Shown here piece by piece: positions 3,605 through 20,137 of a stretch of DNA of 64,000 nt. Below the pieces are notes generated by a model, which searched no databases, was not told where the DNA came from, and was given only the letters and a program-made list of their open reading frames with translations. Source of the DNA: Fulvivirga sp. M361 (GTDB lineage Bacteria; Bacteroidota; Bacteroidia; Cytophagales; Cyclobacteriaceae). Each line of letters begins with the position of its first letter. Position 1 is the stretch's first letter. The translations under genes and the position numbers were made by a program. The DNA lies in assembly GCF_007097395.1 (NCBI RefSeq), contig NZ_VKDC01000018.1:125036-189035 (forward strand), read 5' to 3'.

Positions 3605-5398
3605 ATGAATAACGAAATGAGTATCAGATTTTTTTTATATCTATCCGCAGCATCGGCTATACTTTTTTTTCGATGTGGAGATGATGACAATGTAGGACCT
3701 GAAAACGAAGCTCCAACCATAACAGCACAATCTTTTAATGTTTCAGAAGCGGAGGAACCTGGTAAGGTATTTGGCACTGTTACCGCAAAAGATGCTGAAG
3801 AAGATGAACTCACCTTCAGTATCAAAACCAATGATGAAGATTTGTTTTCTATAAGCAATTCCGGAGACCTTAGCCTTGCAAGTGGTAAAAGCCTGGATTT
3901 CGAGACTAAAAATAAGCATGTTATTACCGTTTCAGCTAGTGATGGAGAGTTATCTGCCTCTGCTGATATTACGATCACTGTGACGGATATAAATGAAAAC
4001 GTTGCACCGGATATCCAGGCCATGATGTTCACTGTTCCTGAAAACATTACTTCTATGGAGGAAATCGGCGTACTAGTCGCTACTGACGCTGATGGAGATA
4101 AACTTACCTTTTCACTTAAAGAACCCGGCATCTTCGATGGATTATTTACTTTATCGGATCAGGAAGAAAAAACAGTTTTGAAATTAGCCGAAGGCAAAAT
4201 GTTGGACTATGAAACCACCACAAGTTATAGCCTGACGGTTGTTGTATCTGATGGGATGCTCAGTGCAGAAGGGATGGTCGATATCACGGTCGAAGATGTT
4301 GATGAAGAAAGTTTCATTACAAAATGGGAAACTACAGTTGATAATCAGGAGATAAGCATGGTAACCGATGGCAGCTATACCTATAGCTATGACATAGATT
4401 GGGGAGATGGAACCATAGAAACGGGTCTATCAGAAGCCCCCTCTCATCAGTATATAAATTCAGGTACATATGAGATAGCTATACGAGGCAGATTCCCGGC
4501 ATTCAGCCTGAATGATAATAATGATGCGATCCAGGAGATCCTTCAATGGGGTACTATTGAATGGCAAAGCATGAAAGGAACTTTTTCCAGTTGCAGCAAT
4601 GTCATATCCACCGCTAAAGACACACCTGACCTGTCGTCAGTGACGGATATGGAGGGAATGTTCTCTGGCGCTTCTTCATTCAATGGCGATTTAAGTAGGT
4701 GGGATGTAAGTGCGGTTACGAATATGAGGAATATGTTTGCCGCAGCAACTTCGTTCAATGGAAGTGTAAGTACCTGGAACACGAGTTCTGTCAGAGATAT
4801 GTCGCAAATGTTCTCATCTGCAGTGGTATTTAATCAGGAAATTGGTTCGTGGAATGTGGAGAATGTGGTCGATATGTCCAGAATGTTTGATGAGGCGCTG
4901 GTTTTTAATCAGGATATAGGTGGTTGGAATGTAAAGTCTGTAGAAAATATGTCAGGAATGTTCGATGATGCCTATGCTTTTAATCAAGATATAGGCTCGT
5001 GGAAAGTAGGTTCTGTAACTAATATGTCAGGTATGTTATCTGATGCTCGTTCATTTAATCAGGATTTAAGTCAATGGGATGTAAGTGAGGTAACTAATAT
5101 GAGTTTCATGTTTTCAAATGCCTTGGTCTTTAACCAAAATATTGGAGCCTGGGATTTAAGTTCTGTCCGCTTTGCGGGTAGTATGTTAAACAATTGTGCA
5201 CTTTCCATAGCTAACTACGCATTGACCCTTGAAGGTTGGTCTGAAGGGCCAAATACTCCCAACAACATTGAAATTGGTGTTCAGGGACTGAAATATTGTG
5301 AGCGCGGGGAAACAGCCAGAGAAATGCTCATTGACGATAGGTTCTGGAGATTTGTCAATGATGATTTCGCCTCGAATGAAGAATGCAACAACCAGTGA
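3605..5398 (+). CDS. cadherin/PKD/BspA-repeat surface lipoprotein (copy 1)
   Basis: The 597-residue protein starts with a short signal peptide and a lipobox Cys (LFFRCGDDD). Two cadherin-like domains follow at about residues 35-130 and 135-235 ([31 protein letters not shown]). A PKD-like domain lies at about 240-300 (YDIDWGDGTIETG). From about 345 to 530 there are roughly eight 25-residue DUF285/BspA-type repeats of the form F-N-Q-D-I-G-x-W-x-V-x-x-V-x-x-M-x-x-M-F. The end has CERGETAREML. Such proteins are usually surface exposed and bind host or matrix ligands. The next gene is a close paralogue, so the pair arose by tandem duplication. The ligand is unknown. Confidence 0.85.
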   Translation: MNNEMSIRFFLYLSAASAILFFRCGDDDNVGPENEAPTITAQSFNVSEAEEPGKVFGTVTAKDAEEDELTFSIKTNDEDLFSISNSGDLSLASGKSLDFETKNKHVITVSASDGELSASADITITVTDINENVAPDIQAMMFTVPENITSMEEIGVLVATDADGDKLTFSLKEPGIFDGLFTLSDQEEKTVLKLAEGKMLDYETTTSYSLTVVVSDGMLSAEGMVDITVEDVDEESFITKWETTVDNQEISMVTDGSYTYSYDIDWGDGTIETGLSEAPSHQYINSGTYEIAIRGRFPAFSLNDNNDAIQEILQWGTIEWQSMKGTFSSCSNVISTAKDTPDLSSVTDMEGMFSGASSFNGDLSRWDVSAVTNMRNMFAAATSFNGSVSTWNTSSVRDMSQMFSSAVVFNQEIGSWNVENVVDMSRMFDEALVFNQDIGGWNVKSVENMSGMFDDAYAFNQDIGSWKVGSVTNMSGMLSDARSFNQDLSQWDVSEVTNMSFMFSNALVFNQNIGAWDLSSVRFAGSMLNNCALSIANYALTLEGWSEGPNTPNNIEIGVQGLKYCERGETAREMLIDDRFWRFVNDDFASNEECNNQ

Positions 5399-5546
5399 TT
5401 ATCTCCCGCTCTGTAGCTTTAGTATATCGTCACTATCCGGTGGGTCACTACAAATTAAAGTCGTGAAATGATCTGTTCATTATCCATACGACCGATTTAC
5501 CCTATGTATGGTCAAGCACTCTAGACTACATTTTATGTTGGTTTGA

Positions 5547-7571
5547 ATGCTATTTTTTTATTTAACCATTAAATTTTTTAAAATGAATTCTTTACAAAAC
5601 AGCTTGAAAAAGAGGCTTATGCATGATGCTACGTGTTCAATTTCAGGCAGTTATCAAAGTATAGCAAGAAGAGCCCTCGTGCACTTATCTCAAGCGTATG
5701 ACTTAATACCCAAATTCTTACTTTTAATTTTTTCGTCATTCCTCATAATAAGCTGTGGAGATGATGACAGTGTAGAGCCTGAAAACGAAGCGCCAGTTGT
5801 CATAGCACAGTCATTTAATGTGTCTGAGACGCTGGAATCTGGTAATGTGTTTGGAACGGTGGTAGCAAATGATCCTGAGGAAGATGAACTGACCTTTAGT
5901 ATCAACACCAATGATGAGGATCTGTTTACGATAAGCAAGACAGGAGGTCTGAGCCTGGCACAGGGCAAAAGCTTAGATTTTGAAACTAAGAATAAACATG
6001 TTATTACCGTGTCAGTAAGCGATGAAAAACAATCTTCGAATGCTGAAATTACAATAAATGTCACCGATGTAGACGAGAATGTAGCCCCTGAGATGGAGGA
6101 CCTGACTTTTACAATTCCCGAGGACTACACTCCCAGCGAAGTGATCGGTATTCTTAAAGCCACGGATTCTGATGGAGATGACCTTACTTATGCCTTAAAA
6201 GACCCTGATGTCTTTAATGGAATATTCATTCTTACGAATCTGGAAGGTGAGACGGTGTTAAAGTTAGTTGAAGGAACCGTGTTGGATTATGAATCAGAAA
6301 ATAGCTATTCATTGACAGTGATTGTATCTGATGGTGTGTTGAGTACCGAGGGTACCGTTAATATCCTATTAACAGATGTTGACGAAGCCGCCGGGTTTAT
6401 TACGAAATGGCAAATTGAGGAAGATGATAAAACAATAACGGTTGGTATTAATGATAATCACACCTATAATTTTAATATAAATTGGGGGGATGGAACTGCC
6501 GAGCGAGGGTTGACTGTTGCCCCGTCCCATACATATAGTGAAGAGGGAACATATTTAGTAACCATCACAGGTGATTTCCCGGCTATATGGTCCGATGGGG
6601 ATGTTCAAAACCAATCGCTTCTGGAAGTGGTTCAGTGGGGTAAGCAAGAGTGGAAAACGATGGCTTCCGCATTTGAATCTTGTACTCGTCTAAAAGTAAC
6701 CGCGACCGATGTTCCGGATTTATCATCAGTCACTGATATGAGTCACATGTTTTTCAAGGCTTCTTCATTGAGTGGAGATTTAAGTCAATGGGATGTTAGC
6801 AGAGTTACGAAAATGACAAGAACATTCCAGGGATGCAGGTCCTTTAATGGAGATCTGAGTAATTGGAAGGTGGGCTCAGTGACAACGATGTTTGGAATGT
6901 TCGCCGATGCCGCAGCATTCAATCAGGATATTAGTTCCTGGCAAGTGGGCAGTGTTATAGATATGACTGCTATGTTTGGTGGAGCGACTTCATTTAATCA
7001 AGATATAGGTGAATGGGATGTTAGCTCAGTGACCAATATGAATGGTATGTTTGATAAAGCCACTTCGTTCAACCAGGATATCGGAGGTTGGAACACTCAA
7101 TCGCTTGTGAGTGCACGTGGTATGTTTCAATTTTCCGAAGCATTTAATCAGGACCTAAATGAATGGGAGGTAGGTTCTATGACAGATATGTCTTTTATGT
7201 TCTCGCAAGCTACTTCCTTTAATCAAAGTTTGAGCAACTGGGATGTAAGTAAAGTAAAAAACATGGAGTTTATGTTTCAACTATGTAATTCTTTTGATCA
7301 ATCACTGGGTAACTGGGACATTCGCTTAGTAGAAAGAATGAAAGGAATGTTTAATGGCGCAGGTTTGTCCACGGCAAGTTATGATTTTACGCTGGATGGA
7401 TGGTCAAGACTTCAAAATGTTCCTAAAAACATTGAATTGGGGGCGAGAGATCTCAATTATTGTAATATTGGTGAGACTGCACGAAGTAAATTGATGAATG
7501 ATCACGGGTGGACTTTTACAGAAGATAAACGTGGCGACGCTTCTGCTTGTAGTGTTATAAGCTTTCCATAA
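5547..7571 (+). CDS. cadherin/PKD/BspA-repeat surface lipoprotein (copy 2)
   Basis: This is a 674-residue paralogue of the preceding gene with the same domain order: lipobox ([10 protein letters not shown], Cys near residue 69), two cadherin-like domains, a PKD-like domain ([13 protein letters not shown]) and about eight BspA-type repeats from about 395 to 590. The sequence before the hydrophobic signal is unusually long (about 50 residues). The real start may be ATG 5583 or GTG 5679, the latter giving a normal-length lipoprotein signal. Conservation is strongest in the cadherin part and lower in the repeats, consistent with repeat diversification. A separate promoter in the 148-bp gap is possible but not identified. 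Confidence 0.82.
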
Positions 7572-7676
7572 TGATTAAGCCTGACTATTTATAGTTAAAA
7601 TCTTGCAGATTCTTCATTATATAGGGAGAATCTGTATATCATGTTTACAACGTCAGTTTGATCTGTAACAGGACAT

Positions 7677-8010
7677 ATGGACAATGCCGAGAAAAGACTG
7701 GCAAACTTTACCACTAGTATGCCAGGCTTTTTAAACTACTTACCAACCCGGGACGAATGGAACCGTGATGCAATAAAAGGGGACATCGAAGTAAAATTTG
7801 GTAAGGAAACGGTGGTGAAGAACAACGGATACAATAGGCACTGGAGAAACGCGTACAAAAGAGACTAAGCTAGCTGGAAAAGATCTAAACTGTAAAATCG
7901 ATCTTTGAGATATCCTTGACGAACGTTGTCAGAGCCAAAAATCAACCTTGTCCCGGACAAATGACCCTACATATGGCTGGGATTTGGTAAAACAAGAGCT
8001 AAACACGCTG
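7677..8010 (+). pseudogene. remnant of a second copy of the subtilisin-like/HlyD-like gene junction
   Basis: Codons from 7677 encode MPGFLNYLPTRDEWN and EVKFGKE, matching MPGFSNYLPSRDEWN and EAKFGKE at the C-terminus of the gene ending at 14380. The similarity continues past the stop: GCTGGAAAAGATCTAA, a TAAAATCG block, TTTGTCCCG/CTTGTCCCG, a GGTAAAA block and CACGCTGCT all recur in order at about 14360-14515. That covers the 3' end of the convergent HlyD-like gene as well (RDKVDFW against RDKTGFW on the minus strand). So a segment spanning two genes was duplicated and then lost its upstream parts. The small frame itself is probably not a functional gene. Confidence 0.8.
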
Positions 8011-8185: not shown

Positions 8186-10562
8186 TTTGTATCGCTTATT
8201 GTTTTTCGCCGGTTGTTTATTTACCACAACGTTAGTGGCAGGGCAGGGACATCCATGGGTGTTTAGCGGTGTTATTAAGAACCAGGACAATCAACCTATC
8301 GATGCCGCTGCCATCAAAATCACTCCGGGGAGTAGGCATACTGTTTCTAACCAGGACGGAACGTTTATGTTGTCATGTCCTACTGGTGAAAAAATGAAAT
8401 TTCTGGAAGTATCCCATTTGGCATACCAACCCGTCCGCATCCTATTGCAGGATATTGAAAACCATGTCAACATAATCATCACCATGCACGACGCAGTACA
8501 AGTTCTGCAGACAGTGGAGATATACCATCAAAACCTGTTAACCGCAATGGTACAGGAAAGCCAGCCCATACAAGTGGTGGACAGAGAATTTATTGAAAAG
8601 AATAATACAGGTACTTTTTCCGGGGCTTTGGCCTCGCTACCCGGCGTGAGCACCATGAATGTCGGAGTGGGTATTGCCAAGCCGGTGATCCGGGGAATGA
8701 GTTTTAACAGGATACTGGTCAATAACCGGGGTATAAAGCAAGAAGGGCAACAATGGGGAGCAGATCATGGTCTTGAGGTTGATCCGTTTGATGTAGAATC
8801 AGTAGAGGTCATAAAGGGACCCGCATCGTTACTGTATGGTTCTGATGGCCTGGGAGGTGTGATCAATATCCGCGCCGATAAATTTTTAGAAGCTGATGGA
8901 GACCGGATCAACTGGATTTCCTCTTACCAGTCCAACAATGATGCATTTTCTAACTCTATGGGCTGGCAAGGCAGAAAAAACAATTGGGTGTACGGTGCCC
9001 GGCTTACCCATCAGGCGTATGGAGATTATACCGTGCCGGCCAATGAATTTACGTATGCCGGGTTCAATTTACCGATCTATGAGAACCGGTTGAAGAACAC
9101 AGCAGGCCGGGAGTTACACTACAGTGTAATGATGGGGCGAACAAGTGAGCACGTTACTTCTACGGTCCGGTTTTCCGCTTTTAACCAGGAGGCAGGTATT
9201 TTTACCGGAGCTATAGGCCTTCCCAGAAGCTATAACCTCAGGCATGAAAACCGTCACCGGGACATAGATTTTCCAAGGCAGGAAAACCAACATTTGATGC
9301 TGGTGAACAATAATACCTTTACCCTGGGAAAGAATAAACTCGAAATAGACCTGGGGATCCAATGGAACCAGCGTAAAGAGCTGTCATTTCCAGGTGCTCA
9401 TGGTATCGAGGCCTCTGCGGTCAATAGTAATTTGGCGCTGGGCCTCAGGCTCACTACTTATACGGCGAATGTACGCTACCAGGCAAGCTGGGCCCATGGT
9501 CATAAGGTACTATTTGGAGGGCAGGCCCAATATATGGATAACGAAAGAGAGGGCTTCGAATTTTTACTCCCGGATTTTTATTCTGCACAATTCGGGCTTT
9601 TCAATTATCATGTTTGGGAGGTCAACCCCAAATGGATACTTAATGCAGGTATACGCTATGACCATGGGCAACATACCATTCAACAACACTTGCAGCCGCT
9701 CTATGACAGAGCTACTTTACAGCCAACCGGCGAGTTCATGGAAAGGACACCCGACTTCGACCGGGAATTTGAGAATTTCAGCGGTGCGGCGGGGGTGAAC
9801 TACCTCTTAACTCCTGGAAATAACATAAAGGTGAATTTCGGCAATAGTTTTCGATTTCCCTCAGCCATTGAACTGTCCAGTAACGGGGTACATCATGGAA
9901 ACTTCCGACACGAAGCCGGTGATCCTTCTCTGGATATTGAAAGAGGCTATCAAACAGATGTTACTTTCTCACACGAGAGTAAGCGCCTGCTTTTTGAACT
10001 TTCCGCCTTTTATGCCTACTACCAGCAATACATCTACCTGGCGCCCACAGGCAGGTTCTCTGACCTGTCATCGGGAGGGACCTTATGGCAATACCGGCAG
10101 GATGACGCTTTGTTCAATGGCCTGGAATTGATGGCCAATTATCAACTCCCATTTGATCTGAAAGTAGAAATGGCCGTTGAGTGGGTCCAAAACCTCAATC
10201 TGCGCACTGACCTGCCTTTGCCACTTACCCCGGCTGCATCTGTACTGCTAAATTTGGAATATAGTGGTTTTAACTGGGCCCATTCGATTTTCAGTGATGC
10301 TTATATTTTTACGGGTGCGGAACAGGTTTTTGAGCAAAGCAGGGTGGATAGGAATGAACGAACGACCCCGGACAGCTTTATCCTCAACGCTGGTATGGGG
10401 TGCCGTATACAAGTTGCCGGACGCCAGCTACAATTCAGAATGAACGTAAACAATGTGTTCAACAGCTCTTACTTCAATCACATCAGCAGATACAGGCTCA
10501 TCAACCTCCCGGAACAAGGAAGGAACCTTGTGGTGTCTCTCAAAGTGCCGGTAAAATTGTGA
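8178..10562 (+). CDS. TonB-dependent receptor, probable zinc/metal uptake
   Basis: The 794-residue outer-membrane receptor has a signal peptide ending near VAGQG and a CarboxypepD_reg-like beta-sandwich at about 30-105 (SGVIKNQDNQPIDAAAIKI). A plug domain follows at about 125-235 (GVSTMNVGVGIAKPVIRGM, VEVIKGPASLLYGSDGLGGVI) and then a 22-strand-type barrel to the C-terminus. It would import a ligand across the outer membrane with TonB energy. The downstream AztD-like and DUF4625-like genes and the shared operators point to zinc. The start ATG sits within the operator; no better upstream start is present, so translation may be leaderless. Confidence 0.88.
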   Translation: MLHLYRLLFFAGCLFTTTLVAGQGHPWVFSGVIKNQDNQPIDAAAIKITPGSRHTVSNQDGTFMLSCPTGEKMKFLEVSHLAYQPVRILLQDIENHVNIIITMHDAVQVLQTVEIYHQNLLTAMVQESQPIQVVDREFIEKNNTGTFSGALASLPGVSTMNVGVGIAKPVIRGMSFNRILVNNRGIKQEGQQWGADHGLEVDPFDVESVEVIKGPASLLYGSDGLGGVINIRADKFLEADGDRINWISSYQSNNDAFSNSMGWQGRKNNWVYGARLTHQAYGDYTVPANEFTYAGFNLPIYENRLKNTAGRELHYSVMMGRTSEHVTSTVRFSAFNQEAGIFTGAIGLPRSYNLRHENRHRDIDFPRQENQHLMLVNNNTFTLGKNKLEIDLGIQWNQRKELSFPGAHGIEASAVNSNLALGLRLTTYTANVRYQASWAHGHKVLFGGQAQYMDNEREGFEFLLPDFYSAQFGLFNYHVWEVNPKWILNAGIRYDHGQHTIQQHLQPLYDRATLQPTGEFMERTPDFDREFENFSGAAGVNYLLTPGNNIKVNFGNSFRFPSAIELSSNGVHHGNFRHEAGDPSLDIERGYQTDVTFSHESKRLLFELSAFYAYYQQYIYLAPTGRFSDLSSGGTLWQYRQDDALFNGLELMANYQLPFDLKVEMAVEWVQNLNLRTDLPLPLTPAASVLLNLEYSGFNWAHSIFSDAYIFTGAEQVFEQSRVDRNERTTPDSFILNAGMGCRIQVAGRQLQFRMNVNNVFNSSYFNHISRYRLINLPEQGRNLVVSLKVPVKL

Positions 10563-10571
10563 GAATAATAA

Positions 10572-10588
10572 ATGCAACATTGTTGCAT
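10572..10588 (+). promoter_or_regulatory. Fur/Zur-like operator, -33 copy
   Basis: ATGCAACATTGTTGCAT is a perfect 8+1+8 inverted repeat. A TTG within it (10583-10585) is 19 bp before the -7 box at 10605, the spacing expected for a Bacteroidetes -33 element, so binding would block polymerase. Confidence 0.7.
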
Positions 10589-10604
10589 ATAAAATATCAA
10601 CCAT

Positions 10605-10625
10605 TATATTTGCAATAATGTTGCA
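10605..10625 (+). promoter_or_regulatory. promoter -7 box plus Fur/Zur-like operator, second copy
   Basis: TATATTTG (10605-10612) matches TAnnTTTG and overlaps TGCAATAATGTTGCA (10611-10625). It sits in the same register as at 8165-8185. It gives the DUF4625-like gene its own regulated promoter with a short leader. Confidence 0.7.
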
Positions 10626-10640
10626 TCTAAAAATCCGCCC

Positions 10641-11534
10641 ATGAAAAAAGGTTTTGTTTTGTTTTTAGCCCTATTTCCCCTTCTTTTCAATGCATGTTTA
10701 GATTCAGGGGATGAGGATACTTTAGATCTGAAAGGCCCGATCATTGGGTCAGTCGATGATATGCAGACTATCATGCCCAGTTACTTCCTGGAAGTTGGGA
10801 CGAAAGTGTTTAGTATTCCATTGGCTTTTCAAGTGGAAGATGAAACGGGTATTTCCGAGATCACGATTGAGTCGCACAGTGGTTTTGACGGCCATACCCA
10901 TGGCAGAAAGGCCAACTCGAATAACTTTGTGCTTTTCGGCTACAGCCATACGATCAGGCAGCAAGACCTGGAAGATCCCAGGCTCTTTCAAAGTGAAGTG
11001 GCCGATGATCTGCGCATTTACCTGGACGACAGGAACGTGTTGATACCCAATAACGGACTGATATTGGCGGGACCTTATCATTTTTCCATCAAAGCCACAG
11101 ATACAGAGGGTAATGAAACTTCTTATGCGGATAACTCGACCTACCATACCACCCTCTACATTCATCGCGAATATGCTCCTTTGATACATGTGGACGCAAT
11201 AGACAGGACCACAGGCACTGTGGAAGGGAGCGTCCGCAGGAATTCGGACCATGAATTTTCATCGGATATTACATTCTTATGGGCCTACATTTCACGGCCT
11301 GACTTTGGCAACCCTGCACAGGAAGGGGAGATCCGGAAGGAATGGGTTTGGGGGGAGTCAAACTGGCCACACCAGTTCAGAGGTGATACTGGCGAAGGCC
11401 TGGCTAATCCTCAGAATATAGACCTGGCCGGACTATTGGCAGGAGAAGAAGCAGTACGTCAAATGGGCGATACTGAAACCCTTACGATCTGGGCGGAAGA
11501 TGCTAACGGAAATATTTCTGTCAGATCTTTTTAA
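10641..11534 (+). CDS. DUF4625-like lipoprotein of the metal-uptake operon
   Basis: The 297-residue lipoprotein has a signal peptide with lipobox Cys19 (LLFNACLDSG). It carries Ig/cadherin-like beta-sandwich segments (FQVEDETGISEITIESHSG; FSIKATDTEGNETSYADN), the pattern I associate with DUF4625. A His-rich patch at residues 79-87 (SHSGFDGHTHG) could bind zinc. It is preceded by a regulated promoter with two operators and followed by the AztD-like gene after 115 bp. It probably acts at the periplasmic face as a metal-binding accessory of the receptor. The family name is from memory and the binding role is inferred. Confidence 0.7.
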   Translation: MKKGFVLFLALFPLLFNACLDSGDEDTLDLKGPIIGSVDDMQTIMPSYFLEVGTKVFSIPLAFQVEDETGISEITIESHSGFDGHTHGRKANSNNFVLFGYSHTIRQQDLEDPRLFQSEVADDLRIYLDDRNVLIPNNGLILAGPYHFSIKATDTEGNETSYADNSTYHTTLYIHREYAPLIHVDAIDRTTGTVEGSVRRNSDHEFSSDITFLWAYISRPDFGNPAQEGEIRKEWVWGESNWPHQFRGDTGEGLANPQNIDLAGLLAGEEAVRQMGDTETLTIWAEDANGNISVRSF

Positions 11535-11649
11535 ACAAGTTACACTATATCATGACCGTGGCCTGAAAGAAGGTTGTCCTAAGTCTCATGTATCAAGCTT
11601 CCTCAGCTTTAGGTTGTGATCCATCCAATAACAAACAAAAACAATAACT

Positions 11650-12930
11650 ATGATGAAAAAACTAACGCTAAAACTTTGGTCTATTCTGGCTTTACTGATC
11701 TTCACCGTGGCGTGTGATGATGACGATAATTCACTGAATACGGAGCCCATCACTTTTGAAGAAAGTGAGAGTGATTGGGTACGTATTACCCTTCTGCGTG
11801 AAGGCGGGATAGACCTCATGCAGGCGAATACAGGCCAAATTGTAAGTTCGGTGAATGAAAGTCTACCGGAAGCAGCCCGTCTTTATACCAGTAATTCCGG
11901 TCAGTATTTGGCAGTAATTGATAGAAGTGGCAATCAACTCCGGTTTTTTGACTCAGGAGTGATCAATCATGCAGACCATGGTCATCAGGAAGCCACGAGA
12001 TGGCTGGATAAAACGGTGGATGCTCCTGTACCTACGCATTACGCCAGTACCGGTGGCCATATGGTCGTTTTCAATGATGGAGACGGTTCTATTACCCATA
12101 TTAACGAGGCGCAACTAGAGATTCCATCGTATGAGCCCAATGTGATAACGTTTGAGAACACTGTGGCACATCACGGCGCAGGGTTTAGGTTGAAAAACGG
12201 GAAATTTGCCATTACCTTCAAAAATACCAACGAACCCGGGGGGCTTCCTCAAATGGTGAAATTCATTAACGCTGACGGAACGGTAATAGACGACAACGGT
12301 GAGGTAGAAGTTACTGGTATCCACGGCGACGCCACCAATGGTGTCTTTGGAGTTTTCGGTTCTACCGACGGGGTGATCTTAGTGGATGATCAGGATAACA
12401 TTAGTCTAATCCAAAATACCGGAGATCTTAACAGTGAAAGTGGAAACTGGATAGGGACATTAAAAGGGCATGATAATACCAACCTATTCTTTGGCAGGGC
12501 CAGGGAACTGGGGATATATGTCATAGATCCCGTATCGCAGGATCTTACCAGCTTATATGAAGGGTCTGATGTGGTCAGTGATATGTTGAGCTTCAATGGC
12601 GAGTATTACCTTGTACACACAGAAGATAACACGATACGAGTGTATGATGCTGAAAATGGGAATGCTATCACCGAAAGAGTGGTAGAAATGGAAAACATAC
12701 CAGCTATGGAAACAACGAACGGCAGGTCCTCACGTTCAGAAATAGAAATCCTTAGAAAGATGGAAGAACCCAGCCCGGTTTTGATCTGTTCTGATCAGTT
12801 CTTATACGTTTTAGCGCCGAACAGGGAAGAAATTAAAGTTCTGCAGATCCGCGATTTAAGCCATGTACATACTATACAACTGAACAGTGCGGTAGACAGT
12901 ATGGTTAAAAACGGATTCACTGAAATATAA
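11650..12930 (+). CDS. AztD-like beta-propeller lipoprotein, putative zinc metallochaperone
   Basis: The 426-residue protein begins with a lipoprotein signal (IFTVACDDDD, Cys22). The rest reads as a beta-propeller with repeated short strands and GDGSI/DDQDN loops. The motif HADHGH (His107, His110, His112), followed by PTHY and a second His pair (VAHHGAG), is the hallmark I recall of AztD-type periplasmic zinc metallochaperones, which pass zinc to an ABC transporter binding protein. No AztABC genes are in the window. Length is close to AztD. It forms the end of the operator-controlled operon and is followed by a strong hairpin. Confidence 0.72.
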   Translation: MMKKLTLKLWSILALLIFTVACDDDDNSLNTEPITFEESESDWVRITLLREGGIDLMQANTGQIVSSVNESLPEAARLYTSNSGQYLAVIDRSGNQLRFFDSGVINHADHGHQEATRWLDKTVDAPVPTHYASTGGHMVVFNDGDGSITHINEAQLEIPSYEPNVITFENTVAHHGAGFRLKNGKFAITFKNTNEPGGLPQMVKFINADGTVIDDNGEVEVTGIHGDATNGVFGVFGSTDGVILVDDQDNISLIQNTGDLNSESGNWIGTLKGHDNTNLFFGRARELGIYVIDPVSQDLTSLYEGSDVVSDMLSFNGEYYLVHTEDNTIRVYDAENGNAITERVVEMENIPAMETTNGRSSRSEIEILRKMEEPSPVLICSDQFLYVLAPNREEIKVLQIRDLSHVHTIQLNSAVDSMVKNGFTEI

Positions 12931-13033
12931 TAGTCAAATTATACATTTCCGGGTATTTGTGCGGCAGGGGAAGGGTAAATGAGACTTTACTTTAAGAGCA
13001 CATACGCAGGGATGATTATCAGAGGTCACTACT

Positions 13034-13070
13034 CTAACAGGTCCACGTTCGGCAAACGAGGACCTGTTAG
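13034..13070 (+). terminator. strong hairpin after the metal-uptake operon
   Basis: Perfect 11-bp stem CTAACAGGTCC / GGACCTGTTAG with an inner CGTT/AACG stem and a small loop. The downstream tail is only moderately T-rich (AATTTCATTT), so it may act as terminator or as mRNA 3'-end stabiliser. Confidence 0.6.
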
Positions 13071-13153
13071 AATTTCATTTGACTAGAATACGGTTAAACC
13101 TAAGCCTAAATAACCTTCTTTTCAGAGTTCCTTTTGGCTAGCTTTATTACTCT

Positions 13154-14380
13154 ATGCTAAAAGTAGGATTGATAGGGGATGGTATGGATAAAACGCTGCT
13201 TCAGCGACATCCTGTCCTGCTCAACAGACTGGTTCACATTGATGGAACAGGAACATTAAAAGCAGAATTTTACACAGACCAACTTAATGCCTGGGTCGGA
13301 GAAGAGGTCAAATTAAACGGCGAAAACAGGGTCACAAGCAATACAAAAGTTATTAGCCTTTTGCTTCAGGCCATGACCTCATACGATGATATTGCATTCA
13401 ATATCGCCCAGGTCCCGATGTTTCCGGCGGAAGATGCTATGACGGCATTCACCACGGCATTGCAATGGATGGCGGAAGTGATTCAACCGGATTTTGTTCA
13501 TGTGAGCTTTTCCAGCCAGGAAGGGAAATACCAAAGGCAGCAAAATGAGTGGGTACAAAAACTGCACGAACAAGGTTGTAAAATTATTTGCCCTGTTGGC
13601 GTACCCCCGGCTTTCCCTGCGTTGCTTGAACATGTCATTTCTGTTTCCGATCGTGGTTTTATGGAAGCCGGATTTACTTTCAGTAACCCTGATGTTATTG
13701 TGGATGAAAAATCCGTGGTAGTTTATGAAAACGGAACGTGGGTGAAACAGGCGCTCTCAAATGAAACTGCCAGCGCCCTGGTGTTAAGTAAAATGATCAG
13801 AACACAAATCACCTCATCACGTCTTAATGAAGCTAAACCCGTCAGACTACCCGATCTGGATAAGCTAAACTTTACGACGGTCAGCCAGCCTAATAACGAT
13901 CATGAATTTTCAGCACCTCCCAAACCGAAATTTTCGGAAAAAGCCCGGTGGTATTTGAAATCCATGCTTTCCAGGGTCATTGTGCCAACAGGTAAAGTAC
14001 CTCTATCCATAAAGAAAACGCGAAAAGTAAGTTGCAATGGGGATGGCGATACCATTTCCGCGTGTGCCTTTAGAATTGAAAGTAAAAAAAAGTCCGGGTC
14101 TTTTGTGTGCGGCGCCTGTGGTTGTGGTGATAGTGAAGGTGTTTTCGTAGGTGGAAATGTACCTAAGTTTGAAAAACTCGATTATCCCTATGTGAACTGC
14201 CCTGCGAGCATGCCTGGTTTTTCAAACTACTTGCCGTCCCGGGACGAATGGAATCCTGGTGAAAGAAAAATAGCCATCGAAGCAAAATTTGGGAAAGAAA
14301 GGTTGGTGGAAGAACAGCGGATACAAGGGGCACTGGAGAAACGCTTACAAAAAAGGTTAGGTTGGCTGGAAAAGATCTAA
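13154..14380 (+). CDS. subtilisin-fold pseudo-protease with C-terminal Cys knuckle, RiPP cassette
   Basis: The 408-residue cytoplasmic protein has a subtilisin-like N-terminal half: KVGLIGDGM resembles the strand carrying the catalytic Asp, and HVSFSSQEG..IICPVGVP..PALLEHVISVSD resembles the S8 core sheet. I see no HGTxVA His motif or GTSxA Ser motif, and the Asp position appears to be Gly, so it is probably inactive or incomplete. Residues about 290-345 hold SCNGDGD, ISAC, CGACGCGD and YVNCP, six Cys likely to bind zinc or an Fe-S cluster. A charged helix ends the protein. It converges on the exporter operon and a duplicate of its end lies at 7677. A role in recognising or maturing the precursor peptide is inferred from position. 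Confidence 0.6.
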   Translation: MLKVGLIGDGMDKTLLQRHPVLLNRLVHIDGTGTLKAEFYTDQLNAWVGEEVKLNGENRVTSNTKVISLLLQAMTSYDDIAFNIAQVPMFPAEDAMTAFTTALQWMAEVIQPDFVHVSFSSQEGKYQRQQNEWVQKLHEQGCKIICPVGVPPAFPALLEHVISVSDRGFMEAGFTFSNPDVIVDEKSVVVYENGTWVKQALSNETASALVLSKMIRTQITSSRLNEAKPVRLPDLDKLNFTTVSQPNNDHEFSAPPKPKFSEKARWYLKSMLSRVIVPTGKVPLSIKKTRKVSCNGDGDTISACAFRIESKKKSGSFVCGACGCGDSEGVFVGGNVPKFEKLDYPYVNCPASMPGFSNYLPSRDEWNPGERKIAIEAKFGKERLVEEQRIQGALEKRLQKRLGWLEKI

Positions 14381-14407
14381 TGTATAAAATCGTTCGCCCG
14401 GAAATCC

Positions 14408-14926
14408 TTAGGGAAGTTTATCAGGCCAGAAACCAGTTTTGTCCCGTATAAACGACCACAACGTACGAGACCTGGTAAAAACAGTAGCTGAAAGCGGTTG
14501 TCCAACACGCTGCTTCTTCATGTGATAGGGTGAGGCGTCTTCTGAATGCTTTGCAGGCTTGAGTACAATAGAATTACGCTTGTTTCCCTTCATATGATCT
14601 ATCCGGATATCGACGACTTCAGCTTCCATCACATCACCATTGTCAAGCACCACATTTGCCTTATCTCCGGGTTCAATTACTGATGCTTTAGACGTTTCAG
14701 CATATAACACGATATGATCCGACGCCATAATTCCATTGAGGGGTAGTTCAAAGTTTAATGAAACACTGGTCGTTGCATAGAAAGCGAGAGAGATCAATGT
14801 AAGAAAGAGTGCCACAGAAAACAATACGATACGAGAGATCAAAAATATACCCGGATGATCGGGGTCTTCAAGTCTGGGAAGAGAATGGTCTGCCTTCCGG
14901 GTATGGTGATCACTATTTGTTTTCAT
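14408..14926 (-). CDS. miniature HlyD-like membrane adaptor
   Basis: Only 172 residues, about 40% of a normal membrane-fusion protein. A cytoplasmic tail rich in His/Asp leads into one transmembrane helix at about 28-52 (ISRIVLFSVALFLTLISLA). A single beta-barrel-like region follows (IVLYAETSKASVIEPGDKANVVLDNGDVMEAEVVDIR), as in HlyD/NHLM exporters. The coiled-coil hairpin and lipoyl parts that reach TolC are missing. It starts 10 bp after the ABC exporter gene and ends the operon. It probably supports the exporter at the inner membrane. Confidence 0.65.
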   Translation of the reverse strand: MKTNSDHHTRKADHSLPRLEDPDHPGIFLISRIVLFSVALFLTLISLAFYATTSVSLNFELPLNGIMASDHIVLYAETSKASVIEPGDKANVVLDNGDVMEAEVVDIRIDHMKGNKRNSIVLKPAKHSEDASPYHMKKQRVGQPLSATVFTRSRTLWSFIRDKTGFWPDKLP

Positions 14927-14936
14927 TTTGCCCTGG

Positions 14937-16757
14937 TCATTTGAAGTAGATGGTATTCATGTCATTGGCCATTGGCCCGGGCACATCGGCATGTGAGATC
15001 ATATCACGAAACTGCTCGTTTTGACTCATTAGTTCAGTGTACGAGCCTTTTGACTCAACTGCGCCATTTTTCAAAATAAAGATCTCATCGGAATGGATCA
15101 GGTTTTTCACCCGATGCGTAACAAAAATGGTGGTTATCCCATATTTGCTGATAAACATGGATAAGCTATTGATCAATCCCATTTCAGTATTGACATCCAG
15201 GTTGGAAGTGGCTTCATCAAGTATCAGGATGCGTGGCTTTCTTATCAACGCCCGTGCGATGGCAAACCTTTGCCGCTGTCCGCCGGACAGACTCGATCCC
15301 CATTCCGATATGGGTGTTTGATACCCCTCGGGAAAAGAACGGATCAAATCATCTAAATGTGAGATCTTAATAATTTCGTTCACTTCATCCAGGGAAGGGT
15401 TTTCCAACCCTAACGTGAGATTTTCCCAAACCGTACCTTTGATCAGTTGAACCTCTTGCCACACGGTAGCGATCTGTCTGCGAAAATCAATAAGTGGCAC
15501 GTGTTCCGAGTTAACGTCATCAAAGTAGATGCTTCCTTCCACAGGTTTTTCGAACCTGCTCAACAATCGCAAAAGGGTCGTTTTTCCGGAGCCACTGGCT
15601 CCTACAAGGCCATAGAACTTGCCACTTTCTAATTTACAGCTGATCCGTTCAAGTATGGGCCGGTTACGCTGATAAGAAAATGAAACATTGTTAAACGTTA
15701 TAGCTCCCTGCAGATGTAATTTAATTTCCGGCGGTGGTTCATACGCTAACTTCGGATCTTGCTCGGGTGCTGCATCCAGGTATTCATACACACGGTTTAA
15801 GTTGACCGCCGCGTGCTGGAAGCTGGTGAATAAATTGACAAGGTTTGAAAATGGCCCATACATGTATCCGATATAGGCCGTAAATGCTACATAATCTCCC
15901 AGGCTCATTTCACCCTGAATGATGTATTTCCAACCAAGCCAGGTAAACAAAGCCATGTTCAGTGCGCTCAGCAGACGGTCTGAAATCCCCAATGCCGAAT
16001 TGATCGAATGTGCCCGGAGATGTGATTTCAAGGCTTTCTGCTGGATAGCTGCTCCCCGCTTAAAGTTATAATGCTCTAATCCAAGCCCCTTGAAGGTTTG
16101 CACCTGGTTCAACATTTCCACCTGGAGGGCATCAAAGTCGGCATGAGCTTCTGAAACGTCCTTCCAGCTGCTGCGCAAATATTTACCCGATAAAAATGTG
16201 ATCAGCCCTGAAACAGGTATGACCAGGATAGCCACGAGGGCCAATTTCCAATGCAGAAAAAAAAGAAAAGGAGGGACGATCAGAAGATAGATCCCTTGTC
16301 CAAATAATACCTGTACCGCATTGACAATAGCGTTCAAAGCACTCTGCCCGTCCGTAAAGCGACTTTTGATCTCGCCTACCTGGTGGCGAACAAAGAAGGA
16401 AGAGGGCAAATGCTGCAGGTGATTGAGAAAGTGCAGATTAAATACACTTCCTACTTTAGTGCTGATATAAGAGGTATAATACCCCAGCGCTATATCTGCA
16501 AAAGTCGAGGCAATGGTGATTGCCAAAATGCCCACAACGATCACTTCCATCAGGGCTATACTACCGGTAGGATATACAGAATCAAAAAGTAGTTTACTTA
16601 AAAAAGGCGTTATGATAGCAAGTAAACCAATGACAGGCCCAAGAACAATTCCCTTTCCTAGTAAAGACCAGTAAGGGCGTATCAGCCGGGTCAATCGAAG
16701 GAAATATCGAAAAGATTGCTTTAGGCCTATATTTTTCCTTTCTTTTTTGTCTTTCAC
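14937..16757 (-). CDS. ABC exporter (fused permease and ATPase), peptide type without C39 domain
   Basis: The 606-residue protein has six transmembrane segments at about 30-320 in the type-1 exporter fold and an ATPase at about 350-580. The ATPase shows Walker A GASGSGKTT, Q-loop VWQEVQLIKGT, signature LSGGQRQRFAIARAL, Walker B ILILDEATSNLD and H-loop THR. There is no N-terminal C39 leader peptidase, so any leader removal must come from elsewhere. It lies between the 613-residue maturation protein and the HlyD-like gene in one tightly spaced minus-strand operon. The likely substrate is the modified 58-residue peptide. Confidence 0.85.
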   Translation of the reverse strand: MKDKKERKNIGLKQSFRYFLRLTRLIRPYWSLLGKGIVLGPVIGLLAIITPFLSKLLFDSVYPTGSIALMEVIVVGILAITIASTFADIALGYYTSYISTKVGSVFNLHFLNHLQHLPSSFFVRHQVGEIKSRFTDGQSALNAIVNAVQVLFGQGIYLLIVPPFLFFLHWKLALVAILVIPVSGLITFLSGKYLRSSWKDVSEAHADFDALQVEMLNQVQTFKGLGLEHYNFKRGAAIQQKALKSHLRAHSINSALGISDRLLSALNMALFTWLGWKYIIQGEMSLGDYVAFTAYIGYMYGPFSNLVNLFTSFQHAAVNLNRVYEYLDAAPEQDPKLAYEPPPEIKLHLQGAITFNNVSFSYQRNRPILERISCKLESGKFYGLVGASGSGKTTLLRLLSRFEKPVEGSIYFDDVNSEHVPLIDFRRQIATVWQEVQLIKGTVWENLTLGLENPSLDEVNEIIKISHLDDLIRSFPEGYQTPISEWGSSLSGGQRQRFAIARALIRKPRILILDEATSNLDVNTEMGLINSLSMFISKYGITTIFVTHRVKNLIHSDEIFILKNGAVESKGSYTELMSQNEQFRDMISHADVPGPMANDMNTIYFK

Positions 16758-16814
16758 TGCTCTGTTGATAAAGTCGTCAAGTCACAGAACCTTCAGGTTC
16801 TCCAAGCTATGTAT

Positions 16815-18656
16815 TCAATCCGGTTGTATTGCCGGTTGCGTTGATTTAGAAATGGCAGATAGCACGGTATCCATAAGTTTGTCCATTTCTTCGGGAACTG
16901 AAAATACGCTGATACCCGTGAGTTTTTCAATCCTTTCTTTAGCCTGATCAATCATTTCATCCCGTACATCCATAAAATAAGTTTCCGTCCAGCGTGATCC
17001 TTGTATCTTTCGCCCTCCCATAATGGCAAAACCAAGCACTTCTGAGTGTATACCACGTTCCCGGGCCAGCTCCCGGATATAGTCAAGGGTTTTCGTCACT
17101 GTCTCTGAAGAAGTGTCTACGGACATGGTCAGGATGATATAGTTAGGCTGGAACTGATGATAGATCTTGGTAGAGGCATTACCCCGGTGGGTTTGGTCCC
17201 TGGGCGAATAGATCATAGAATTCTGACCTCCGGTAATCAGCAAATCGCTTTTTATCTCCAGTTCTTTCTGTAACATACGATGTATGGTAAGGCGCTTTCC
17301 TTCATCTTCATCTTCCACCCTGGAAAATCCAATATCGGCGCCCACCAGCGTACCTGTAGGTTCAGTAGCAAAATGAGTTACACGCAGCTTATCTTTCAGC
17401 GCTTCGCGTAGATAGATCTGAGTGGTGAACTTGCCTTGCACGGTATCCGTGCCAAATATTCCCAGTGTCTTTTTCGGTTTGAATTGGTGGTATTTCTTGC
17501 TATCAGCTTTGGTGATTGAAAAATCCTGGACATGGATCTTATAAAAATGGCTGTTATCTTCTGATCCGTCAAAGATATCGGTGTACATCAGCACATCGTC
17601 GTAAAGGGAAATCACCGGCATCTTCTCTGCCCTGGCTCGGCGCATGATACGCTTCAAAAAATGAACTTCAGATTCGAAATTTAAGGAGCACGTGAGGACA
17701 ATGGCATCAAAATCCATGGTATCGATAGCGTCAATATCATTGACTACCGGTATCGATGTTTTTTTCGAATAGATGTACGTAGAGGAATCTTGCAGCTCCA
17801 CCGTATCATCAAACACCACTACGGGCTCAAACGAAAGCGTATCATGGAACCGCAGCAGGCTGTAAGCTTCTTTGTTATATTTAAAAATGGCTACATTCTT
17901 TCCACGCAGCACATTTTCCACTTCTTCTTTTCTGAAGATGGCAACACTCTTATTCTTATGTTCAAGATCGATTGCAATCCGTTCTTTCACATCCCAGATC
18001 CCTTCTAATTGGTCCGAAAGTTTTGAATAATCGTATTTGGCATGTACCCGCATGTTGTTCATGGTCAGCATGGGTAAACCAAAGTCAGGGCTTTTGAAAT
18101 AGTACGGAGACTCTTGCGAACCGGAAACTTTGAACATGTGGTGAGATTCCGGGTGTAAGAGGAAATACTGGCCATAGATAAACAACCCGCCTTTTTCGTA
18201 TAGCTTTGGGTCAAGCTTCACATGTTTCAGGTTATCCAGGGGAACCTCATCGCCTTCAGCGATCAGTTTGTAGATTTCAAAAACCGGTGGGGTTTTGGGT
18301 TTTTCCGTGGATATGTACGTGAAAAAACTAAGAAAAGGATCGACCGGAAATACGCTGATCACTTCCTTCTTTCTTAACGGTACAGATTGCATCGCATTTT
18401 CATACTGGGCTAAAAAGGATTCCTGGGCCGCAGGCCACTGAGTAGGGTCTGCGTGCATGAAAATGTAGTCGCTACCGGAAAAGAGCTCGAACAGTGGAGT
18501 GGCCTCCCGGTCTTTTTCCAGATCGATATTGGCCTCGGCAAATTTGATCATCGAGTACATCCAGCAGTTTGCTTCAGCCATCCAGGCTTCGCTGTAAAAA
18601 TCATATCCCCAGGTGGAATAGTAAAGCTTAGGCAATTCAGGGGCAGTAGTCAGCAT
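16815..18656 (-). CDS. peptide-maturation-like protein with C-terminal DUF1611-type P-loop domain
   Basis: The 613-residue cytoplasmic protein has three parts. Residues 1-235 are of unknown type. About 250-385 form a Rossmann-like domain (NVAIFKYNKEAYSLLRF, FEPVVVFDD, DFDAIVLTCSLNFESE). About 395-600 form a P-loop domain with GIFGTDTVQGKFTTQIYL and HFATEPTGTLVGADIGFS, matching the GTDxxxGKxTT and TGQTG-like motifs of DUF1611/DgcN proteins; DgcN is an N-acetyltransferase for D-glutamate. The Rossmann plus P-loop layout also resembles the 'peptide maturation system' family TIGR04066 found next to clostridial Cys-rich peptides, as I remember it. It is cotranscribed with the GH57-like and exporter genes. 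A peptide-modifying reaction is inferred, not shown. Confidence 0.6.
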   Translation of the reverse strand: MLTTAPELPKLYYSTWGYDFYSEAWMAEANCWMYSMIKFAEANIDLEKDREATPLFELFSGSDYIFMHADPTQWPAAQESFLAQYENAMQSVPLRKKEVISVFPVDPFLSFFTYISTEKPKTPPVFEIYKLIAEGDEVPLDNLKHVKLDPKLYEKGGLFIYGQYFLLHPESHHMFKVSGSQESPYYFKSPDFGLPMLTMNNMRVHAKYDYSKLSDQLEGIWDVKERIAIDLEHKNKSVAIFRKEEVENVLRGKNVAIFKYNKEAYSLLRFHDTLSFEPVVVFDDTVELQDSSTYIYSKKTSIPVVNDIDAIDTMDFDAIVLTCSLNFESEVHFLKRIMRRARAEKMPVISLYDDVLMYTDIFDGSEDNSHFYKIHVQDFSITKADSKKYHQFKPKKTLGIFGTDTVQGKFTTQIYLREALKDKLRVTHFATEPTGTLVGADIGFSRVEDEDEGKRLTIHRMLQKELEIKSDLLITGGQNSMIYSPRDQTHRGNASTKIYHQFQPNYIILTMSVDTSSETVTKTLDYIRELARERGIHSEVLGFAIMGGRKIQGSRWTETYFMDVRDEMIDQAKERIEKLTGISVFSVPEEMDKLMDTVLSAISKSTQPAIQPD

Positions 18657-18688
18657 GATTCGTTTTGTTGAATTCTTAAATGGTAGTA

Positions 18689-19873
18689 TTACGTCAGTAC
18701 TTCTTCATGATCAAATTGATACTGCATTAAACCCGACAACCACTCGACCCCTTCGTGCCACCAGTGGCCAAACAGCTCTGTATCAAAAGCCACAATGAAT
18801 GTGCTGCCGTCATGGCTGAAAGCACGGTGGTCTTCAAGGATCTCATCAAAATCCACCAGATGCTCTTGTAGTTTACGCCTGGCCGCAGCTCGGTTGTACA
18901 ACGACTTAAACCCAAGGTCTACGCCCTCACCGGTGATTGAAAAGTATTTGTATCCTGTCCAGGCATTTCTGGCTTTACCCGTATGTACTTCTACTCCGAT
19001 ATGTTTGAAATACTCTGGAACTACATCTAAGCCAATATCCCTGAAGAACTCACGGTAGGGGCCATCTGCCGGAAAAGTAGTATCAGGCGCTTTCCATAAG
19101 TACATGGACAGGCGGTAGTCATGGGCGTAAATATCGAGGTCGCCATGACGATAGACTCCACTCTTGTCTTTTCCTGAATAGGCACCTATTCCCGGGACAG
19201 TTAATGCCGTGGCGCCGATATCATATTTTTTCATGTACTTTTCCGTTCCCGGAAAATAGGCGCACTCAGGCATCCAGAAGCCATCAGGTTTTCGGTCAAA
19301 TACGTTTTCAAATTCTTCTACACCTCTTCGAATAAGGTGATCGACGGTCCTGCCTTCAAAAAATGGGATAAAATTATGAAAAGGGCAGGAGGTCCATACA
19401 TCGATGCTTTCATTTTTACGATCAAACAAATCATTTAAATAAGCTGCGATATCCCGATCTTCCCAAAAAGCGCGGCTTTTGCGAACACGATTTAAGTAGA
19501 AATGGGCCATGTCATGCACCAGGTCCAGTTGGTCGGAAGGTATGTCCGCTTTGTTTTTTAAGAAGCGGTTGTACTCATGAGGGTTTGAGGTTCGTTCTAC
19601 TTCATACACTCCAATTTTTTCCATGATGTCCAAATAAGCCAGGTAACGCTCTTTGCCTTCAACCAGTTGGTTGAACAAGCATGGAGTCATGGAAAAGATC
19701 ATTTTTTTACCCCCCTGGACTGTAGGGTCCCATGCTTCAAATGCCTCGAACAGCGGAATATAAGTTTCAGTGATGGCTTCAAATAGCCAGTTCTCTTTTT
19801 CCTGGAAAATCGGACCATTATTCAGCACATAAGGCATATGTGTATTGAGAATAAAAATAACTTCTTTATTCAT
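18689..19873 (-). CDS. GH57-like protein in the RiPP cassette
   Basis: The 394-residue protein reads as a GH57 catalytic barrel: N-terminal ILNTHMPYV, MPECAYFPG with Glu203 at the nucleophile position, and VAFDTELFGHWWHEG with Asp364 at the acid/base position. These match GH57 1,4-alpha-glucan branching enzymes, which are about 520 residues; the C-terminal helical domain is absent here. No glycogen genes are nearby. It lies 32 bp before the maturation-like gene and directly after the precursor peptide, so it may act on a sugar carried by the peptide or have been recruited to a new reaction. Both catalytic residues are kept, so activity is plausible. Confidence 0.72.
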   Translation of the reverse strand: MNKEVIFILNTHMPYVLNNGPIFQEKENWLFEAITETYIPLFEAFEAWDPTVQGGKKMIFSMTPCLFNQLVEGKERYLAYLDIMEKIGVYEVERTSNPHEYNRFLKNKADIPSDQLDLVHDMAHFYLNRVRKSRAFWEDRDIAAYLNDLFDRKNESIDVWTSCPFHNFIPFFEGRTVDHLIRRGVEEFENVFDRKPDGFWMPECAYFPGTEKYMKKYDIGATALTVPGIGAYSGKDKSGVYRHGDLDIYAHDYRLSMYLWKAPDTTFPADGPYREFFRDIGLDVVPEYFKHIGVEVHTGKARNAWTGYKYFSITGEGVDLGFKSLYNRAAARRKLQEHLVDFDEILEDHRAFSHDGSTFIVAFDTELFGHWWHEGVEWLSGLMQYQFDHEEVLT

Positions 19874-19892
19874 GGGCGTCGTTGGTTGAGAT

Positions 19893-19927
19893 ACAAAAAT
19901 CCCGAACGGATTTTATGCTCGGGATTT
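19893..19927 (-). terminator. hairpin between precursor peptide and GH57-like gene
   Basis: On the minus strand AAATCCCGA ... TCGGGATTT forms a 9-bp perfect stem followed by TTTGTAT. It lies between the precursor stop and the downstream operon. Partial read-through would give far more precursor than enzyme, as is usual in RiPP clusters. Confidence 0.6.
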
Positions 19928-19960
19928 CTAGTGGTTTTTAGCAAATAGTATCAAGATTCC

Positions 19961-20137
19961 TTAATCTTCGTTAAATCCTGGATACCTGTCCTCGCAAAAT
20001 GCAGAAGAGTCTTCGCTACAGATGGAAGGACTAACCCAACTGGGGCTAACGTTTGAGGTAGACCAGTTACTTTCCGCTAAAGCATCCGGTTTAATGCTGT
20101 CCATCATAGCATTAATTTCATTTGATGAGTACTTCAT
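19961..20137 (-). CDS. 58-residue candidate RiPP precursor peptide
   Basis: ATG at 20137-20135 and TAA at 19963-19961 frame a small acidic peptide. Residues 1-22 look like a leader (KYSSNEINAMMDSIKPDALA), with no double-Gly site. Residues 23-58 are Ser-rich (ten Ser, one Thr) with two Trp (25, 34), two Cys (40, 48) and the repeat SPSWVSPS, ending RYPGFNED. An A-rich stretch precedes the ATG, common for Bacteroidota translation starts. It heads the operon of the GH57-like protein, the maturation-like protein and the exporter. No family was recognised. The identification rests on size, composition and position. Confidence 0.7.
   Translation of the reverse strand: MKYSSNEINAMMDSIKPDALAESNWSTSNVSPSWVSPSICSEDSSAFCEDRYPGFNED

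Follow-up and report, generated by a model that had tools for sequence, protein, structure and literature searches.

GH57 branching enzymes and peptide clusters carrying a TIGR04066 gene are the described systems closest to a gene cassette in Fulvivirga sp. M361, located within a window of 64,000 nucleotides (contig NZ_VKDC01000018.1, positions 125,036 to 189,035 of the forward strand; "the window" means this whole stretch). For AmyC, the available part of PMC6616209 gives the roles of a Glu nucleophile, an Asp acid/base, His10 as the acid/base polarizer and Trp gatekeepers. The SacP23 and Roseburia clusters, in the available parts of PMC4573289 and PMC10731318, combine a TIGR04066 gene with radical S-adenosylmethionine (SAM), carrier-related, subtilase and ATP-binding cassette (ABC) genes. 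The cassette of the window encodes a small peptide, a GH57-like protein, a 613-residue protein, an ABC exporter, an adaptor and a subtilase-like protein. We tentatively regard it as a system for a ribosomally synthesised and post-translationally modified peptide (RiPP), with a split GH57/DUF1611 pair in place of the radical SAM enzyme found in the related clusters; the pair probably serves to glycosylate the peptide. To this reading we give slightly less than an even chance.

In sequence, the GH57-like and 613-residue proteins match the branching enzymes AmyC (2b5d), TK1436 and TT1467 across the catalytic domain and a portion of the C-domain, and they have the same catalytic Glu and Asp, Trp gatekeepers and Ser-Asp-x-x-Phe motif. 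In the cassette, however, the match is spread over two genes, the C-domain is shortened and fused to a DUF1611 module, the polarizer His is replaced by Asn, Arg237 is lost and the neighbours are a peptide gene and an exporter. With the SacP23 and Roseburia clusters the cassette shares a related module (via the fusion loci L008 and L053, see below), a subtilase-type gene and an ABC exporter. It differs from them in that a GH57 C-domain is attached to the module, the TIGR04066 model does not detect the window protein and none of the six cassette proteins matches TIGR04068 or TIGR04069. The TIGR04068 radical SAM maturase is also absent from the ten flanking open reading frames (ORFs) tested between 3605 and 29325. 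Neither the six proteins nor the ten ORFs include a lanthionine synthase, YcaO, radical SAM or ATP-grasp enzyme (Pfam, NCBIfam), in agreement with a preliminary description of the locus. Because neither a radical SAM enzyme nor a TIGR04066 match above the cut-off was found, we file the cassette as a RiPP-type variant outside the TIGR04066/radical-SAM class. Glycocins are glycosylated exported ribosomal peptides made by nucleotide-sugar glycosyltransferases; no family of such glycosyltransferases was matched by the six cassette proteins (Pfam, NCBIfam).

Two candidate halves of a GH57 branching-type enzyme

Four clusters were compared: the window and three loci (L003, L004 and L005) from one contig scan with the 613-residue protein, which confirmed 3 of 22 pattern stretches and reaches close relatives only. 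L003 and L004 belong to metagenome-assembled genomes titled Roseivirga sp., L005 to one titled Bacteroidetes bacterium. Over the best segment, identity to the 613-residue protein is 67 and 68% in L003 and L004 and 41% in L005.

The GH57-like ORF scores 54.1 bits against PF03065 (cut-off 21.2), and a profile built from the four GH57-like sequences matches residues 4-368 of the 528-residue T. maritima AmyC in two stretches (E 1.4e-50). The window protein stops at residue 394, after the region equivalent to AmyC 368. A profile of the four 613-residue-type proteins matches AmyC 400-449 (E 0.0064, 177,635 sequences searched) with its positions 16-62, corresponding to window residues of about 14-60. 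A further comparison used seven glycogen branching enzyme (GBE)-like proteins of same-phylum genomes (L040-L046). Against their C-domain the first 110 residues of the 613-residue alignment reach an hhalign score of 34.2 (E 2.5e-4); none of 200 column-shuffled controls reaches this value (best 21.8), and nine other segments of the protein score at most 20.2. Compared with the GBE-like proteins, the catalytic half scores 280.9 alone and 303.2 when joined to the other half. The catalytic and C-domain parts occupy separate ORFs at all four loci.

Fourteen AmyC active-site positions were mapped from Table 1 of PMC6616209 as available, excluding loop entries and positions without an AmyC equivalent; twelve are identical in all four enzymes. 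The catalytic proteins keep, with window numbering in brackets, Glu185 (Glu203), Asp349 (Asp364), His12, Trp29, Trp246 (Trp260), Phe261 (Phe276) and Trp356 (Trp371). The 613-residue-type proteins keep Trp402 (Trp16), Trp411 (Trp25), Ser462 (Ser62), Asp463 (Asp63) and Phe466 (Phe66), the last three being placed by hhalign together with the spacing of Ser-Asp-x-x-Phe. The predicted nucleophile Glu203 and acid/base Asp364 are thereby placed in the gene for the 394-residue protein, and Trp16, Trp25 and Ser62-Asp63-Phe66 in the gene for the 613-residue protein; the gatekeeper aromatics Trp29 and Trp260 are in the catalytic protein at all four loci.

The GH57-like protein and roughly residues 1-98 of the 613-residue protein thus resemble the two parts of a single GH57 enzyme of the branching type. 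Position, motif and controls together give the predicted fission good support, the C-domain match alone being modest. The GH57-like identity given in the preliminary description stands (PF03065 above cut-off), but its treatment of the two proteins as separate enzymes does not agree with the C-domain match. Two further GH57-family matches lie elsewhere in the genome.

An AlphaFold model of residues 1-250 of the 613-residue protein has a predicted TM-score (pTM) of 0.71 and a mean predicted local distance difference test score (pLDDT) of 66.7. Foldseek returned no match to this model at E 0.001 or better; the weak rows include receptor immunoglobulin-like domains, TapA, CBM21 and alpha-amylases. 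Because these rows are only weak, we call the middle stretch beta-rich and nothing more.

The DUF1611 module and its TIGR04066 relatives

The 613-residue protein matches PF07755 (DUF1611) with 30.9 bits, over the gathering cut-off of 25, and the profile of its type matches 2g0t (E 6.4e-13). The P-loop Lys409 is invariant in all four proteins. The seven best Foldseek rows of the whole model are the DUF1611 entry 2obn, 2g0t and DgcN (7xrj). The last, titled N-acetyltransferase, is presumably a DUF1611 protein, as the Foldseek match indicates; it has a DUF1611-type fold like that of the module, with 10% identity in the alignment. DgcN is described in the available part of PMC12363236 as an enzyme of D-amino-acid metabolism.

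In two loci from other genomes the module is fused to an S8 subtilase. In L008 (genome G487) the fusion is accompanied by a radical SAM/SPASM gene, a 127-residue Cys-rich ORF, and HlyD-like and ABC genes (8935-17243). In L053/L054 (genome G913, of the same family as the window's genome) it follows an ABC gene (L054 616-3945) on a 4.2-kb contig, which is too short to judge a precursor. The window and L008 both have NKExxSLxRF and GTxxxQGKFTTQ, and an ABC gene lies near the fusion in L008 and L053/L054. Unlike in the cassette, the subtilase of these loci is fused and has triad motifs, L008 has the radical SAM/SPASM gene and the Cys-rich ORF, and L008 and L054 have no GH57 gene among the listed ORFs (at least 120 residues in L008, at least 35 in L054). 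A second ABC gene of L008 (4585-6648, 687 residues) seems, by eye, to have a peptidase-like start.

Both fusions match TIGR04066, "peptide maturation system protein", L008 with 89.6 bits (E 2e-25) and L053 with 57.3 bits (E 1.3e-15), below the 200-bit cut-off. TIGR04066 was found in G487 only among 296 genomes of the phylum and in 0 of 14 control genomes. The L008 fusion matched 32 of the 296: G487 itself over the whole length, and the other 31 with listed matches within residues 14-258, the subtilase part. Plasmid records gave 333 matches to the whole fusion, none covering 80%, and the best 25 of these all lie in residues 2-300, again the subtilase part; the DUF1611 part had no match there at E 0.001. 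The preliminary description had called the 613-residue protein a Rossmann/P-loop maturation-like protein and had seen no known class of modifying enzyme in the cassette. The DUF1611 module bears out the first part, but the module is not unprecedented in peptide clusters, since its L008 and L053 relatives match TIGR04066, albeit below the cut-off. A defence system was considered and rejected, the only match of the 613-residue protein being a weak one to Csx28 (PADLOC E 0.0029, residues 241-298; NCBIfam E 0.044).

A conserved precursor-like peptide

One or two peptide genes lie upstream of the GH57-like gene at all four loci that carry the 613-residue protein (one in the window and L005, two in L003 and L004). 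The six peptides have 51-58 residues and exactly two Cys each, and Cys-Glu-Asp is present in all of them. Between L003 and L004, copy a shows 29 base differences, 23 in the third position (nonsynonymous rate dN 0.030, synonymous rate dS saturated and not computable), and copy b shows 24, 20 in the third position (dN 0.022, dS 1.25); dN is 0.02-0.09 over all six pairs. As the changes are mostly in third positions, the peptides change in the manner of a translated sequence. Alignment scores between the window and L003 peptides were reached by 0 of 5000 shuffles both globally and locally, those between the window and L005 by 0 of 5000 globally and 1 of 5000 locally. Ungapped comparison of residues 2-17 was matched by 0 of 20,000 shuffles for window-L003 and for window-L005 and by 2 of 20,000 for L003-L005.

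Searches with the window peptide found nothing in Pfam or NCBIfam (E up to 1) or PHROGs (E up to 0.1), and the next match in its own genome after the peptide itself has E 0.045. Because its relatives occupy the matching place in L003, L004 and L005, it is more than a chance ORF. Judged by its pattern of substitution, it is a translated, conserved sequence, and the 58-residue precursor proposed in the preliminary description is upheld. BT_3928-family genes lie beside peptide clusters in L005 (12542-13981, E 2e-13) and L008 (3507-3923, E 2.4e-10) and may serve disulphide formation; the L005 gene has, by eye, a thioredoxin-like part and is thioredoxin/MauE-like.

The hairpin downstream of the window peptide has a folding energy of -19.7 kcal/mol (z -3.2, equalled by 1 of 200 shuffles); a stricter scan for terminators, limited to loops of at most 8, gave no hit in the same interval. 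A similar hairpin is present in L005 (z -3.05) and a T-tailed stem in L004; none follows the second peptide in L003. Sigma-70 promoter scans gave observed and expected counts of 4 and 3.8 in the window, 3 and 2.1 in L003, 7 and 3.2 (standard deviation 1.9) in L004, and 5 and 7.4 in L005. The counts, near expectation in the window, are not used as evidence.

Exporter, adaptor, subtilase and surroundings

All parts named in the preliminary description were found where it had placed them (Table 1).

Table 1. Features of the peptide cassette; positions refer to the window
Feature	Position	Strand	Remarks
Pseudo-subtilase	13154-14380	plus	Triad lost; Cys-rich C-terminal region; converges on the minus-strand genes
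Mini HlyD-like adaptor, 172 residues	14408-14926	minus	No Pfam match
ABC exporter, permease and ATPase	14937-16757	minus	Pfam matches without leader-peptidase domain
613-residue protein	16815-18656	minus	Putative GH57 C-domain half ~1-98, beta-rich ~98-190, DUF1611 Rossmann/P-loop ~253-605
Putative GH57 catalytic half, 394 residues	18689-19873	minus	PF03065; Glu203, Asp364
Intergenic hairpin with U-rich tail	19874-19960	minus	RNA fold; between peptide and enzyme genes
Precursor-like peptide, 58 residues	19961-20137	minus	Two Cys, conserved N-terminus, Cys-Glu-Asp

A dedicated ABC exporter gene is present at all four loci. The window exporter has 17 Pfam matches with no leader-peptidase family among them, so its description as an exporter without leader peptidase holds; bacteriocin-exporter models are among the best exporter matches, all below their cut-offs. 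The L003 counterpart of the adaptor reaches no better than E 0.0073 against an adaptor model, and the L005 counterpart is a 385-residue HlyD-type protein.

No library calls the window pseudo-subtilase a subtilase outright (NCBIfam QhpE, E 0.084); it aligns to the L005 subtilase. QhpE is the best NCBIfam match, below cut-off, of the L005, L008 and L053 subtilase parts. Triad motifs are present in the L005 and L008 subtilases, and alignment with these shows that Asp, His and Ser of the triad are lost in the window, L003 and L004. The Cys-rich C-terminal region, shared by the window, L003 and L004 and absent from L005, matches no Pfam or NCBIfam family and could bind metal.

No transfer RNA gene and no Rfam family at the gathering threshold was found in the window. 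Elsewhere in it, two adjoining ORFs (3605-7571) encode cadherin-like and repeated DUF285 domains, and an ORF of 2042 residues extends from 33404 to 39532.

Conservation and distribution

The cassette is genuine, and it is conserved between loci. The GH57-like gene adjoins the gene for the 613-residue protein in each of the four clusters, with a gap of 32 bp in the window, 23 bp in L003 and 25 bp in L004 (start assumed at 9983) and an overlap of 11 bp in L005. ABC, adaptor and subtilase-like genes are also present in all four. Gene order differs in L005, where the peptide is preceded by the exporter, the 385-residue adaptor and the subtilase, and is separated from the GH57-like gene by about 850 bp that include a 72-residue ORF. 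Around the split GH57 genes of L005 there are, by eye, IS5-like and IS200-like transposase pieces (8268-8486 and 11893-12324), a hint that this cluster is mobile or disturbed. The search for homologous clusters across genomes that the preliminary description had proposed found the peptide together with the 613-residue protein in four of four clusters and no cluster lacking a peptide.

The cassette is rare among bacteria. In genome samples that overlap one another, matches were confined to the own genome and G022 (E 9.3e-5) among 58 genomes of relatives, and to the own genome among 390 genomes of the same order. The 613-residue-type profile matched the own genome and G487 (E 3.1e-17) among 395 genomes of the phylum, and the own genome and G913 (E 1.1e-9) among 255 of the family. 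Plasmid records had no match to the 613-residue protein at E 0.01; viral contigs gave 58 pattern matches, none of them confirmed.

Proposed mechanism and alternatives

Under the reading that we prefer, the peptide would be made in excess of the enzymes, since a hairpin separates its gene from theirs, and its conserved N-terminal part would act as a leader. The 394-residue protein and the N-terminal domain of the 613-residue protein would together rebuild one GH57 branching-type active site, which would take an alpha-glycosyl group off a glucan or an oligosaccharide and pass it to peptide side chains. The fused DUF1611 module might add or gate a second step, e.g., acyl transfer, given its fold relative DgcN. 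The dead subtilase may hold the precursor, while the L005 version with triad motifs might cleave it, and the ABC exporter and small adaptor, by their families, would secrete the product. An antimicrobial or a signal would be an ordinary product of such a system.

The RiPP-like character claimed in the preliminary description is borne out by the conserved translated precursor, the maturation-type proteins, the exporter and the lack of a classical RiPP enzyme among the ORFs tested, and the unusual peptide chemistry that it suggested is plausible. Its statement that the set is internally complete is doubtful, as the exporter has no leader peptidase and the subtilisin triad is lost. A stronger proposal is that the cassette represents a new RiPP class whose defining chemistry is glycosylation, and perhaps acylation, of a leader-carrying peptide by a split GH57/DUF1611 retaining transglycosidase, in the place otherwise taken by a nucleotide-sugar glycosyltransferase or a radical SAM enzyme; we consider this possible, at appreciably less than an even chance.

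Several results weigh against glycosylation by the split pair. The polarizer His10 is Asn in all four enzymes, the chemistry of which may therefore be altered, and in place of Arg237 three have His and one has Ser; to judge from these residues, glycosidase chemistry may have changed or disappeared. No other single point speaks as strongly against ordinary glycosidase chemistry as the Asn that replaces the polarizer. The hhalign probability of the C-domain match is 43%, and that of the whole 613-residue alignment is 13% (E 0.0021). Among the cassette genes none was recognised as donor-forming (Pfam, NCBIfam), and no leader protease is evident in the window. In L005, the subtilase frame (6987-7721) lacks ATG, GTG and TTG codons ahead of the Asp motif, which makes its start and an active enzyme uncertain; it may have an unusual start or be a decayed gene. 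Locally, the L003-L005 peptide similarity is weak, 40 of 5000 shuffles scoring as high (3 of 5000 globally). The AlphaFold model of the whole 613-residue protein is poor (mean pLDDT 56.8, pTM 0.38), its DUF1611 Foldseek rows have low TM-scores (0.20-0.26 by query), and the window protein has no TIGR04066 match at E up to 1. Finally, in the available part of PMC10731318 immunity, not maturation, is proposed for the TIGR04066 protein of SacP23. Because of the S8-DUF1611 fusions, we lean towards maturation as the role of TIGR04066-type proteins.

The changed residues leave some room for a different division of labour, in which group transfer (acyl or other) by the DUF1611 P-loop module is the defining chemistry and the GH57 halves are a binding scaffold without glycosidase activity. 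The substitution of His10 and the loss of Arg237 are in line with this, and so are the invariant P-loop Lys409, the title of the fold relative DgcN as an N-acetyltransferase and the fact that the module is the part common to the S8 fusions L008 and L053. However, a mere scaffold would have no need of the catalytic Glu and Asp and the substrate-lining aromatics that are kept in all four loci, and we think this explanation rather unlikely. It is less probable again that a glycan or other small molecule is the substrate of the GH57/DUF1611 pair and that the peptide is left unmodified by it, as a separate exported signal or bacteriocin. GH57 branching enzymes do work on glucans, according to the available part of PMC6616209, and a direct link between enzyme and peptide cannot be shown from sequence; yet the peptide genes precede the GH57-like gene in all four loci, and DUF1611/TIGR04066 genes are found in peptide clusters. 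An unmodified exported disulphide peptide amid decayed or transient enzymes would agree with the two Cys of all six peptides, the subtilase triad lost in three loci and the thioredoxin/MauE-like gene near the L005 cluster (BT_3928 match and by eye), but it is very improbable, as 41-68% identity and long invariant blocks in the 613-residue protein across four loci point to function.

Overall, modification of the peptide by the split GH57/DUF1611 pair is the reading that we retain. The parts are relatives of known families; what looks new is the GH57 fission, the fusion to DUF1611 and the place of both in a peptide cassette. Among the matches listed in open-licence PubMed Central (PMC) literature, nothing joins GH57 or DUF1611 with RiPPs. 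TIGR04066/DUF1611 proteins occur in peptide clusters but have no established role there; here the module is joined to one half of a well-studied enzyme of sugar transfer, and this makes the role of DUF1611 testable. If the peptide is indeed glycosylated, this would be a branching-enzyme fold acting on a ribosomal peptide, of which the same literature matches describe none, and a new way of decorating ribosomal peptides.

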